From Bdellovibrio sp. 22V (GTDB lineage Bacteria > Bdellovibrionota > Bdellovibrionia > Bdellovibrionales > Bdellovibrionaceae), in contig NZ_CP125854.1 of assembly GCF_030169785.1 (NCBI RefSeq), positions 1,364,001-1,428,000 on the forward strand: a stretch of 64,000 nt of DNA, given 5' to 3'. The translations under genes were made by a program, and so were the position numbers. Under the pieces are notes generated by a model that was given only the letters and a program-made list of their open reading frames with translations, was not told the DNA's origin and ran no database searches. Below, in pieces: positions 45,318 through 48,577 of the stretch (its first letter is position 1; each line of letters starts with the position of its first letter).

Positions 45318-45905
45318 TTGAAAGACGAAATACTGTCACGCCTTGAAAATCCTCAACCTCTGGATCTGCATACCAAACTCACCCGGCATGCCTGTGTCGC
45401 CATCATTCTTAGAGGACCTAGTTTGCACTACTTAGAAGTCGGCTTTATACAGCGTGCCTTAAATCCTCTCGACCGGTGGGCGGGTCATATCGCTTTTCCC
45501 GGCGGAAAAAGAGAAGACTCTGACAAATCCGATCTCGAGGCGGCTTTACGGGAAACGAAAGAGGAAGTCGGCGTGGACTTGCATCCCGACGAGCTTTTAG
45601 GGCGCCTTGACGACGTGCAGGCGCGCAAAGGCGGAACGCTGCTGGATTTCTATATTCGCCCTTTTGTTTTCTACACTCAGCGTGAATTTGCAGTGACTTT
45701 GGATGCGGCGGAAGTCGCCGATTTTTTCTGGGTGCCGCTTAAGGAAATTCAAAACCCGCAAAGACAAACTCACTATACTGTCGAACGCGAGTTCGGCCAT
45801 GTGAAACTTCCTGCGGTGCAATTGGATCGTGAGCCGCCGCTCTGGGGACTCACGTACATGATGATTCTGAATCTATTCGAGCGACTGAACGGTCTTAAAA
45901 AATAG
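45318..45905 (+). CDS. CoA-type Nudix hydrolase (NudL-like)
   Basis: A 195-residue Nudix protein. The Nudix box spans about residues 62-85 (GGKREDSD, then REtKEEVG) and the preceding WAGHIAFPGG and following GRLDDVQARKGGTLLDFYIRPFVFY fit the CoA pyrophosphatase group. It should hydrolyse CoA or acyl-CoA derivatives in the cytosol. It begins with TTG after AGAAGGATATTAC; no better in-frame ATG is near. The gene ends 11 bases within the 3' end of the minus-strand gene, so they converge and overlap. Confidence 0.85.
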   Translation: MKDEILSRLENPQPLDLHTKLTRHACVAIILRGPSLHYLEVGFIQRALNPLDRWAGHIAFPGGKREDSDKSDLEAALRETKEEVGVDLHPDELLGRLDDVQARKGGTLLDFYIRPFVFYTQREFAVTLDAAEVADFFWVPLKEIQNPQRQTHYTVEREFGHVKLPAVQLDREPPLWGLTYMMILNLFERLNGLKK

Positions 45906-46884
45906 GATAGGCTTCTGAAATCTTGATCGCTTTTGCCGTCCACGGACTGTTCGGCAGATTTTTTTTCATTTGCTCCAGATATTGCAATCCCTGCGCTCGC
46001 GTTTGCTTCGACAACTCCATGCGTTCCTCTTTCGTACTGACTGTAGAGTAGTCGCGCTTCAGGAATTCGTTCAGCTGAAAATCACTTAAAAGTCTTTTAT
46101 CCGTCAAAATCCACGAAAGTTCCATATGATACTGAATCATTTCGTAAAGAGCTTCCTCGAAAACTTCGACGACAGGACCCCATTTTAAAATCACATCGTA
46201 TTTTTTAAACGCCATCGGATAATCGCGCTTTACCAGAAACATGCGCGCTTCACTCAGAACATTTTTTCCGTACATCTGACGAGAGCCATTAAGCATCGCC
46301 AACACTTCATTCTTATAATAAGAATTCGGATACCGATCCAAGAAAGAGTGAAACTGTAAATTTAGAAGATACGGAGTTTCTTCGGTTTGCGTTAAAGCTG
46401 CTCCCAAACTGAGAGAGACAAACTCCATCTGTCTTTCTTTGCTTCTCCACGTTTGTTTGATTTCGCCTTCCACCGCACGCAAAAGCTGCAAGTGCATGTA
46501 CTCCGAATCATTTTTGTGATTGTTCATTTCAATATAAATATTCGCTTCGTTGATCACCATGATAAAGTCTTGTGCGTTCATGAAAGTATCAATGTAAGCA
46601 CGGTAAGCTTCTTTATAGCGCGGGCTCGCACCATAATTGACAATCAAACTTTTATAATACTTTGCGGGTTCGCATTTGTTGTAACCGTCACTGGCTCTTT
46701 GCGCTTTTGCCCAAAGCTCTTGCTCGCTGGCATCCCAGTCAATTTCCATATCTTCGGGGCAGATTTGTACGTAAGGATCTTGAATGAAACCAAGTTCGAA
46801 TAGAATTTTTTGCAGCTTCGTCACTTTGGCATCGGCAGTGAGTGACATCAATAAAATCGCGATTGTGATTAAGATCTTTTTCAT
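45895..46884 (-). CDS. Periplasmic TPR-like protein (BamD-like)
   Basis: A 329-residue exported protein. A signal peptide MKKILITIAILLMSLTADA is followed by helical repeats, with segments such as LFELGFIQDPYVQICPED, AYRAYIDTFMNAQDFIMVINEANIY and FLVKRDYPMAFKKYDVILKWGP, which resemble tetratricopeptide helices. The C-terminal LEQMKKNLPNSPWTAKA is like BamD-type repeats, but there is no lipobox. The ATG at 46884 is chosen because it starts the signal peptide. It follows an outer-membrane barrel gene separated by a terminator. Function unknown. Confidence 0.65.
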   Translation of the reverse strand: MKKILITIAILLMSLTADAKVTKLQKILFELGFIQDPYVQICPEDMEIDWDASEQELWAKAQRASDGYNKCEPAKYYKSLIVNYGASPRYKEAYRAYIDTFMNAQDFIMVINEANIYIEMNNHKNDSEYMHLQLLRAVEGEIKQTWRSKERQMEFVSLSLGAALTQTEETPYLLNLQFHSFLDRYPNSYYKNEVLAMLNGSRQMYGKNVLSEARMFLVKRDYPMAFKKYDVILKWGPVVEVFEEALYEMIQYHMELSWILTDKRLLSDFQLNEFLKRDYSTVSTKEERMELSKQTRAQGLQYLEQMKKNLPNSPWTAKAIKISEAYPIF

Positions 46885-46903
46885 ACGTTCCCCCCGAAAA
46901 AAT

Positions 46904-46935
46904 GAAGGGCGCTTCCCCCTCCGAAAGCGCCCTTC
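46904..46935 (-). terminator. Terminator between the outer-membrane protein and TPR genes
   Basis: Perfect 11-bp stem GAAGGGCGCTT / AAGCGCCCTTC (46904-46914 and 46925-46935). On the minus strand it is followed by ATTTTTTCGG, so it can stop transcription of the porin-like gene before the TPR-like gene. Confidence 0.9.
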
Positions 46936-46941
46936 CACAGA

Positions 46942-47949
46942 TTAGTTCTTTTTACCCGTCAACAAATTGTGACGAGCTTCAACGTGCGCCTTGATACGAG
47001 CACGGATACCAACAATAGTTTCGTCAGTGCCGTTGCCAGAAAGATCGCGACGGTGACGGATTTCCGGGCTCAATACCAACCATGTTCCCACAGGAAGATT
47101 GTAAGCCACAGCCACTTCGTGAGCTTGTTTGTCTAGGTACTGGTACTCAACCACAACAGCACCAGGTCCCACTTTGTAAGATCCACCGATTTTTCCACCG
47201 ACAGTCGTGTCTGTGAATTCCGGATGATCGACAACAACAACACCCTCAGCCCATACTTTCCAAGAACCATCCAAACCGCGGAATACGAAACCAATGCTTC
47301 CACGTTTTTCTTTTTTATCTGTACCTTCATTTTCTTTCATCAAGCCCGAGATTTGCGCCGACAATTGATTTGAAAGCTCTTTGCTCAACTTGATTGAAGC
47401 ACCCTTTTCGTCAGACACTTTCAAGTCACCCGCACCTGCTTCAAACATAGAGATCGCCACTGTATCGACAATCTTAAAGAAGTTCGCCGGAAGTTCGACC
47501 GTGAAACCGATCACTTCGTCTTGTTTTGAAAGATTATAAAGAAGAGCGTCCTTAAACATTGGCAGCTCTGTATAGTTTTGACCGAAAGCCATTTGGTGCT
47601 TACCGGCAGTGATCACTGCACGTGGCAAGCCAGAGATTTTGTCCGTTTCGATTTGGATGTAAGCCTCTTCCAAGAACTTACCAAGATCGAAATCTTCGTC
47701 CATAGTGGACTTGTTCAATTTTTGCTCAAGCTCGGTCTTTACGACCATCTTGATACCTTCACGCACGATCAATTCAAATTTGATCTCAGCGTCTTGCACG
47801 CGAAGATTTCTTTCATAGTCTTCGCTTGAGCTCCCTGTCACATCGAAATTCGCCTGGCCGTCGACTTTAAGCCACGGCGCTGCTTCTGCTGTCACTGTTT
47901 GTGTGCAAAGCAATGCCGCAAGTACGGCAGTAGTAAGTTGAGTTTTCAT
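46942..47949 (-). CDS. Outer-membrane beta-barrel protein (porin-like)
   Basis: A 335-residue exported protein with a signal peptide (about 1-23, QTVTAEA). The mature chain alternates polar and hydrophobic residues in strands such as GGKIGGSYKVGPGAVVVEYQYL, and IVGIRARIKAHVEARHNLL, and has a porin-like segment AVITAGKHQMAFGQNYTELP near 114-133. It is likely a channel or scaffold in the outer membrane; the substrate is unknown. The last residues KKN lack the usual terminal Phe. It has its own terminator and precedes the TPR-like gene. Confidence 0.72.
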   Translation of the reverse strand: MKTQLTTAVLAALLCTQTVTAEAAPWLKVDGQANFDVTGSSSEDYERNLRVQDAEIKFELIVREGIKMVVKTELEQKLNKSTMDEDFDLGKFLEEAYIQIETDKISGLPRAVITAGKHQMAFGQNYTELPMFKDALLYNLSKQDEVIGFTVELPANFFKIVDTVAISMFEAGAGDLKVSDEKGASIKLSKELSNQLSAQISGLMKENEGTDKKEKRGSIGFVFRGLDGSWKVWAEGVVVVDHPEFTDTTVGGKIGGSYKVGPGAVVVEYQYLDKQAHEVAVAYNLPVGTWLVLSPEIRHRRDLSGNGTDETIVGIRARIKAHVEARHNLLTGKKN

Positions 47950-48368
47950 GGTTCCCCCTTTTTTGGTTTATGTGGACCGCCCTCTTTCCCCTAATTGTTC
48001 GAGTGCGGTTGCGAATGGGGACTATTCCAAAGAAGGTGCCAGCGCGACTTTCATGTCACGGGCAAAAAATTCAAACTCGCAAGATCACAGAAGTAAATGG
48101 GTGTTTGGAACACAGTTCGCGAAGCGAAGGTGACGACAATTGTTTCTCGCCGTCTCAAAAAAGACGCCCTATTTTGTCTCAACACTCTAGGTCAAATTTT
48201 AAGCAAACAAAGAAGAGTGAAGTCATTTTCATCAGATAGAAAGATGTCACCGCATAAGAGACAATTTCAGTCTCTATTACATGTGATTATAGGTGTGCAT
48301 TTCTGTTTGACACTTCCCGTTTCAAACTAGGAATCGTGCAAGTTTTTAAAGAATTTTGAAAAAGTCGC
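47950..48368. other. Leader region without a gene
   Basis: A stretch of about 420 bases between the porin-like gene and the sigma-28-like promoter. It holds no protein-coding frame that I would support; the short frames in it have no good start site. An imperfect hairpin AGAGAC-GTCTCT at 48257-48275 and a TTGACA hexamer at 48307-48312 without a matching -10 are the only notable points. Confidence 0.5.
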
Positions 48369-48395
48369 TCAACTCTCCAAAGGTCCAGCCGATAA
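48369..48395 (+). promoter_or_regulatory. Sigma-28 (FliA)-like promoter
   Basis: The perfect -10 octamer GCCGATAA at 48388-48395 lies 11 bases after TCAACTCT (48369-48376), which matches five of eight positions of the FliA -35 consensus TAAAGTTT at the correct spacing. Transcription would start near 48402, a few bases before the ribosome-binding site of the small frame at 48426. Confidence 0.6.
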
Positions 48396-48425
48396 GCTTA
48401 CTACCTTGAATGAAAGGAGCCTTGA

Positions 48426-48515
48426 ATGGCGAAATCAAATGTAGCACGTCACGAATTGATACTTTCTCAGGAGATTCGTGAATTGACTCTACACCCGGAG
48501 ACGGGGCCACCTTAA
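48426..48515 (+). CDS. Possible 29-residue protein behind a FliA-like promoter
   Basis: A 29-codon open frame from ATG to TAA, below the usual length cut-off. The start follows GAAAGGAG with a 6-base spacer, and the sequence reads MAKSNVARHELILSQEIREL and then TLHPETGPP. A strong sigma-28-like promoter lies about 30 bases upstream and a perfect terminator 30 bases downstream, so promoter, RBS, frame and terminator form a compact unit of about 180 bases. The peptide is mixed polar with two Glu-rich turns, likely cytosolic. I do not recognise it; it could instead be the leader of a small RNA. Confidence 0.5.
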   Translation: MAKSNVARHELILSQEIRELTLHPETGPP

Positions 48516-48544
48516 CCCTTCTAATTTAAATATTGGTGATTAAT

Positions 48545-48577
48545 AAAAACCAGAACTGCAAGGAGTTCTGGTTTTTT
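48545..48577 (+). terminator. Intrinsic terminator after the possible small gene
   Basis: A stem of about 13 bp (48545-48557 and 48564-48576) with the sequence AAAAACCAGAAC / GTTCTGGTTTTT, loop GCAAGG, followed by TTCTTTTT. Confidence 0.92.

Follow-up and report, generated by a model that had tools for sequence, protein, structure and literature searches.

Is the short transcription unit at positions 48369–48577 of the 64,000-nucleotide (nt) stretch of Bdellovibrio sp. 22V analysed here (contig NZ_CP125854.1, positions 1,364,001 to 1,428,000 of the forward strand; hereafter the window) a small non-coding RNA or the messenger RNA of a 29-residue protein? The whole unit belongs to the 3,601,631-base genome that contains the window, and all its features are on the plus strand. 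The original prediction, made from the letters alone, had described promoter boxes, a Shine–Dalgarno site, a 29-codon frame and a terminator, all of which are indeed in place, and had proposed a small gene or RNA, controlled by sigma-28 (FliA), that would be strongly expressed in attack phase and passed over by gene callers. Judging from its conservation, the frame is very probably a translated small-protein gene, and it seems that one of the most expressed genes of this predator has been missed; small proteins are under-represented in the 2025 proteome (PMC12546842).

All 24 genomes of the genus retain the complete unit, from promoter and Shine–Dalgarno site through frame to terminator, the locus being recovered by DNA search in 22 of the 23 genomes other than our own and by protein search in all 23, with one copy each. 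The frame, MAKSNVARHELILSQEIRELTLHPETGPP followed by a stop (48426–48515; ATG at 48426, TAA at 48513–48515), is preceded by AAAGGAG (48413–48419), a Shine–Dalgarno site that reads (A)AAGGAG in every one of the 24 genomes. The start is kept, the stop varies between TAA, TAG and TGA yet always remains a stop, and differences in length amount to whole codons (insertions and deletions in multiples of three), so that frame-specific conservation is accompanied by a start, a stop and a ribosome-binding site in 24/24. Over the 69 gap-free nt (23 codons) of 21 distinct sequences from the genus, differing codons are conservative in the annotated frame only (mean BLOSUM score of 1.56 vs. −0.35 ± 0.41 for column shuffles; z = 4.7; 0/300 shuffles). 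The five other frames all contain stops, and an antisense gene is ruled out because the antisense frames are among those interrupted. When codon changes are counted on a tree built from a neighbouring gene, the T-G-P-P codons display 29 third-position changes vs. two at positions one and two together; G, P and P are invariant in the genus, while T is found in 23/24. The C-terminal ETGPP (48498–48512) thus appears to be under protein-level selection, with third positions varying freely. That the frame would persist in close relatives with synonymous-biased changes had been put forward as a check of the prediction, and this is what the codon counts, the tree and the shuffling test all find.

Correspondence to APsRNA5 of strain HD100

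In Bdellovibrio bacteriovorus HD100, the source of all the attack-phase expression data considered here, the transcript APsRNA5 (605,441–605,617, minus strand, 176 nt) reaches 388,842 reads per kilobase per million (RPKM) in attack phase vs. 73 in growth phase, i.e., a 5295-fold difference (Table 2 of PMC3627812; Karunker et al. 2013). It ranks second in abundance among HD100 attack-phase small RNAs in the published table, and was retained as a small non-coding RNA after a blastX filter, with no significant homology reported elsewhere (PMC3627812). The HD100 orthologue of our frame (605,512–605,598, minus strand, in genome G006) is contained in APsRNA5, the numbering of G006 being that of the publication, as confirmed by a c-di-GMP-I (cyclic di-guanosine monophosphate) riboswitch falling inside the published coordinates of merRNA, another attack-phase RNA. 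Locus, strand, extent and gene neighbours are all shared with HD100. The transcript predicted from the window is 176 nt long, the very length published for APsRNA5, and the 3′ end of the latter coincides with the position of our intrinsic terminator (48545–48576), which ends the predicted transcript with a 13-pair stem, a 6-nt loop and a T tract. In the aligned unit, a terminator stem of the CCAGA...TCTGG type is present in most genomes of the genus.

The attack-phase expression foreseen by the original prediction is seen in HD100. The unit is the orthologue of APsRNA5, and quite likely a messenger RNA rather than a non-coding one. The difference from the published account is that APsRNA5 was described as non-coding and without homologues, whereas we find a protein gene conserved in 33 genomes and four genera; no later paper naming APsRNA5 was found in the literature searched. 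At face value, the published status of APsRNA5 (PMC3627812) would argue for a purely non-coding small RNA in which the open frame is incidental, as would the fold of the RNA, which is better than that of shuffled sequences in this genome (z = −3.9). Such an RNA is very unlikely, however, when set against a coding signature confined to the right frame, the excess of silent changes in TGPP (29 vs. 2), a Shine–Dalgarno site, start and stop kept in 24/24, and a coding region devoid of consensus fold. Rfam has no known RNA family at this locus.

Distribution of the family and codon use in EIREL

When 141 genomes of the order and 369 of the phylum were searched with profiles, nine more genomes turned up, from three other genera (g13: 1; g6: 6; g8: 2), hence a single-copy family of 33 genomes in four genera, all of the same family of bacteria. 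A degenerate DNA pattern for EL-x4-ETGPP returned the same families, plus two isolated hits elsewhere, in other families, which resemble chance, and was found in no genome of genus g3 in the searched set; an archaeal match (L096) was rejected as chance, as it lies within an apparent array of clustered regularly interspaced short palindromic repeats. No viral copy of the gene was found. In Bdellovibrio, there is one frame per RNA, with the consensus MAxxxVVR[HK]ExI...E[IL]RELx4ETGPP, and the protein measures 27–33 residues across the genus and its nearest relative. The aligned unit hardly changes in the promoter, in (A)AAGGAGCCTTGAATGGC, which spans the Shine–Dalgarno site and start, or in the coding blocks, the variable parts being the leader, the middle of the frame and the 3′ region.

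All eight genomes of g6 and g8 (L055, L056, L064–L069) have two frames on the same RNA: an upstream frame of 5–7 codons, M(..)[RK]PDI and a stop, with its own Shine–Dalgarno site, and, beginning about 60–70 nt after it, the frame ending in ...ELLELx4ETGPP. Outside these two genera, the RPDI pattern gives only chance-like matches. Loss of the first stop and fusion in the Bdellovibrio line would account for both forms, a suggestive scenario for which the codons themselves offer a hint (CGT AAG GAA TAT ATC TGG vs. AGA CCG GAT ATC TGA).

Within the Bdellovibrio frame, selection does not appear to act on the protein alone. The core GAGATTCGTGAATTG (48471–48485), encoding E16-I17-R18-E19-L20, is near-invariant even at silent positions: E16 is GAG in 24/24, I17 ATT in 21/21 Ile, R18 CGT in 23/24, E19 GAA in 24/24 and L20 TTG in 24/24. 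On the tree, these five codons underwent two third-position changes vs. 29 in the four TGPP codons. Upstream, in R8-H9-E10 (48447–48455), H9 is variable, while silent changes are nearly absent from R8 (CGT in 21/21 Arg, no third-position change) and E10 (GAA in 23/24, one such change). General codon preference cannot explain this freeze, since opposite choices are made for one amino acid within one gene: E16 is always GAG but E19 always GAA, and I17 is always ATT whereas I12 mixes ATC and ATT. The EIREL codons thus probably point to a second function, or at least a constraint, at the RNA level, for which an RNA pairing or binding site is the reading that the pattern most obviously suggests.

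Several candidates were tried and rejected. As a cause of the freeze, a CACGAAT/ATTCGTG hairpin has 86% of its alignment cells paired but no compensatory change, equals shuffles and is broken in the HD100 group, and the stops in the antisense frames leave no overlapping gene on the other strand. By eye, GGA motifs of the CsrA type are not retained in all rows of the alignment, and the left half of a would-be palindromic operator in the frozen core changes independently of the right half. RNAalifold found no conserved hairpin in the coding region.

An extension of the messenger reading is a dual-function RNA, in which the small protein is accompanied by a GAGATTCGTGAATTG segment acting as RNA on target mRNAs or on a protein. 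The position-specific freeze and the opposite codon choices, beyond the reach of codon bias, favour it, whereas the lack of a conserved hairpin and of compensatory pairs does not, nor does the fact that the segment is not frozen in g6 and g8; we regard it as a real possibility while stopping short of calling it probable. In SgrS/SgrT, a dual-function RNA, the protein and RNA roles reside in separate segments. The likeness is one short RNA carrying a small protein gene, with an RNA-level constraint visible here from sequence, but the constrained segment of our unit lies inside the coding frame.

Promoter, mechanism and role of the protein

The promoter consists of a −35 element TCAACTCT (48369–48376), an 11-nt spacer CCAAAGGTCCA (48377–48387) and a −10 element GCCGATAA (48388–48395). 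Taken as a single sequence, the case for it is weak, because GCCGATAA is at chance frequency in the window (2 occurrences vs. 1.95 expected) and the −35 agrees with TAAAGTTT at just 5/8 positions; conservation of the unit lifts it far above chance. Across the 24 genomes of the genus, the block CTCAACT...AAAGGTC..GCCGATA is near-invariant in the aligned unit, the −10 containing GCCGATA in 24/24 and the −35 being conserved as TCAACT in 24/24, with TTAACT once. Other genera have TAAAGT (in g6), TCAACT or TTAACT at equal spacing. Hence, the −10 is perfect and the 11-nt spacing is right for sigma-28, while the TCAACT of the genus diverges from the TAAAG type; the canonical TAAAGT of the g6 orthologue, at equal spacing, supports sigma-28. 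On these sequence grounds, the unit is probably under sigma-28 (FliA) control. As for the spacer, it is unusually conserved, i.e., to the same degree as the two boxes across the genus, and an additional regulator may bind there; the −35 and spacer sequence occurs once in its own genome. Between promoter and frame, a predicted leader hairpin (CCTT-GAATGA-AAGG, 48404–48417) would cover part of the Shine–Dalgarno site, and folding each leader reveals stronger, unrelated hairpins at the same place in about a dozen sampled genomes.

According to our proposal, the sigma-28-type promoter would drive a transcript of about 176 nt in attack phase (expression being known in HD100 from the work of others), the transcript would end at the intrinsic terminator, and ribosomes would bind AAAGGAG to produce a cytosolic protein of about 29 residues; there is a good chance that the three steps hold jointly. 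The action of the protein would then depend on two fixed parts, namely R-x-E...E[IL]REL, which is helical, and ETGPP, which is exposed at the C-terminus, and the EIREL codons would give the RNA its probable second role or constraint. That helix and tail dock on a partner protein or on the ribosome, making the protein an attack-phase regulator, is the leading reading of its action, though a tentative one held with low confidence. AlphaFold predicts a helix over residues 2–22 and a loose tail with modest confidence (mean predicted local distance difference test score of 72.5; g6 member aligned with the rest), and neither a signal peptide nor a membrane segment is visible by eye.

Several observations pull the other way. 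With regard to FliA, the conserved promoter motif sustains the original prediction, while the FliA column for APsRNA5 is blank in the 2013 table (PMC3627812), and the published HD100 5′ end falls some 24 nt downstream of the −10 box, immediately beyond the leader hairpin, where a sigma-28 start would be expected about 7 nt after the box; the published end could be processed or mis-mapped. With regard to the protein, it has no significant match in Pfam, NCBIfam, PHROGs or the sequences of the Protein Data Bank, and an amphipathic helix was rejected, its hydrophobic moment not exceeding that of shuffles. Finally, it follows from the silent freeze that the sequence of the RNA is important in its own right, and the protein may therefore account for the function only in part.

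The gene neighbourhood bears on another possibility. The usual setting in the genus is a NUDIX hydrolase gene on one side and, on the other, a convergent gene of about 315 residues without Pfam family; neighbours differ in the other genera. Of the genomes compared, this is the only one in which the NUDIX gene is separated from the unit by two further genes, both on the minus strand and one of them weakly porin-like (window 45900–47950). No sampled genome of the genus has a co-directional gene close downstream, which makes a role as a cis-acting leader unlikely, and an attenuator of the downstream gene is ruled out, as that neighbour is convergent. One might otherwise imagine a leader or arrest peptide whose ribosome stalls at Gly-Pro-Pro to regulate the next gene, given the small frame, the conserved 14-residue C-terminal motif with fixed spacing ending in GPP, and the two-frame versions of g6 and g8. 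We find this extremely unlikely: the terminator directly follows the frame, the genus genomes sampled all have a convergent gene next to it, an export signal is not visible, and the residue before GPP is Thr (Val once) in all 33 genomes, where the RAPP class of arrest peptides requires an Arg before [AG]PP that is reported to be irreplaceable (PMC12992588). The RAPP peptides ApdA, ApdP and ApcA (PMC10951233, PMC12992588) resemble our frame in being small and having a C-terminal Pro-Pro, but differ in the required Arg, in the export signal and in having a regulated downstream gene; the class was ruled out for lack of the Arg and of a co-directional downstream gene.

Other attack-phase RNAs

A frame of 12–14 codons, MK.RIHDHHDE[PA]PK and a stop (in HD100, MRTHEHHDDELK), follows AAGGAGGACA in the 21 merRNA loci read out and passes the same kind of coding test (0/500 shuffles). 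It lies upstream of the c-di-GMP-I riboswitch, both in HD100 (L098) and in our genome, where merRNA is outside the window (G000:C1:1450592–1451037, L151). Described as the most abundant attack-phase RNA and as non-coding (PMC3627812), merRNA resembles our unit in its massive expression, its label, its conserved short frame and its strong Shine–Dalgarno site, but differs from it in having the riboswitch, an unrelated sequence and no sigma-28-type promoter seen by eye. APsRNA2 (L104, L168–L188) has an open frame of 15–17 codons, M[VI]...ITKAEV..., behind GGAGG or GGGGG in 21/21 matches, with a 6-nt insertion or deletion; this frame overlaps an apparent RNA stem and fails the coding test (266/500). 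In HD100, APsRNA6 and APsRNA7 (L101, L102) have longer frames that resemble small membrane proteins by eye.

Could the peptide itself be unimportant, with abundant short frames merely holding ribosomes in non-growing attack-phase cells through strong Shine–Dalgarno sites? The extreme abundance of the RNA and the strong Shine–Dalgarno sites of merRNA and APsRNA2 would fit such ribosome-occupying mini-mRNAs, and a C-terminal Pro-Pro before the stop is expected to slow termination. Nonetheless, E, E, L, G, P and P are conserved over four genera, which exceeds the needs of slow termination, and some frames of g6, g8 and g13 extend 1–7 codons beyond PP, hence we judge this improbable.

Coming back to a messenger RNA with a functional protein, a wider and for now doubtful generalization is that the dominant "non-coding" RNAs of attack phase, at least APsRNA5 and merRNA, would be super-abundant mini-mRNAs encoding conserved peptides of 12–30 residues with a second function at the RNA level, which would jointly set the dormant-like hunting state, the APsRNA5 unit being split into two frames in sister genera and fused in the Bdellovibrio line. 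Together, the frames of APsRNA5 and merRNA call the non-coding label of the attack-phase RNA set into question. If APsRNA5 is a messenger RNA, its 29-residue protein, which seems not to have been studied and to have escaped mutant and proteome work, may rank among the most abundant proteins of hunting cells, and its gene, being short and simple to mutate, would offer a way into how Bdellovibrio stays in attack phase and leaves it.
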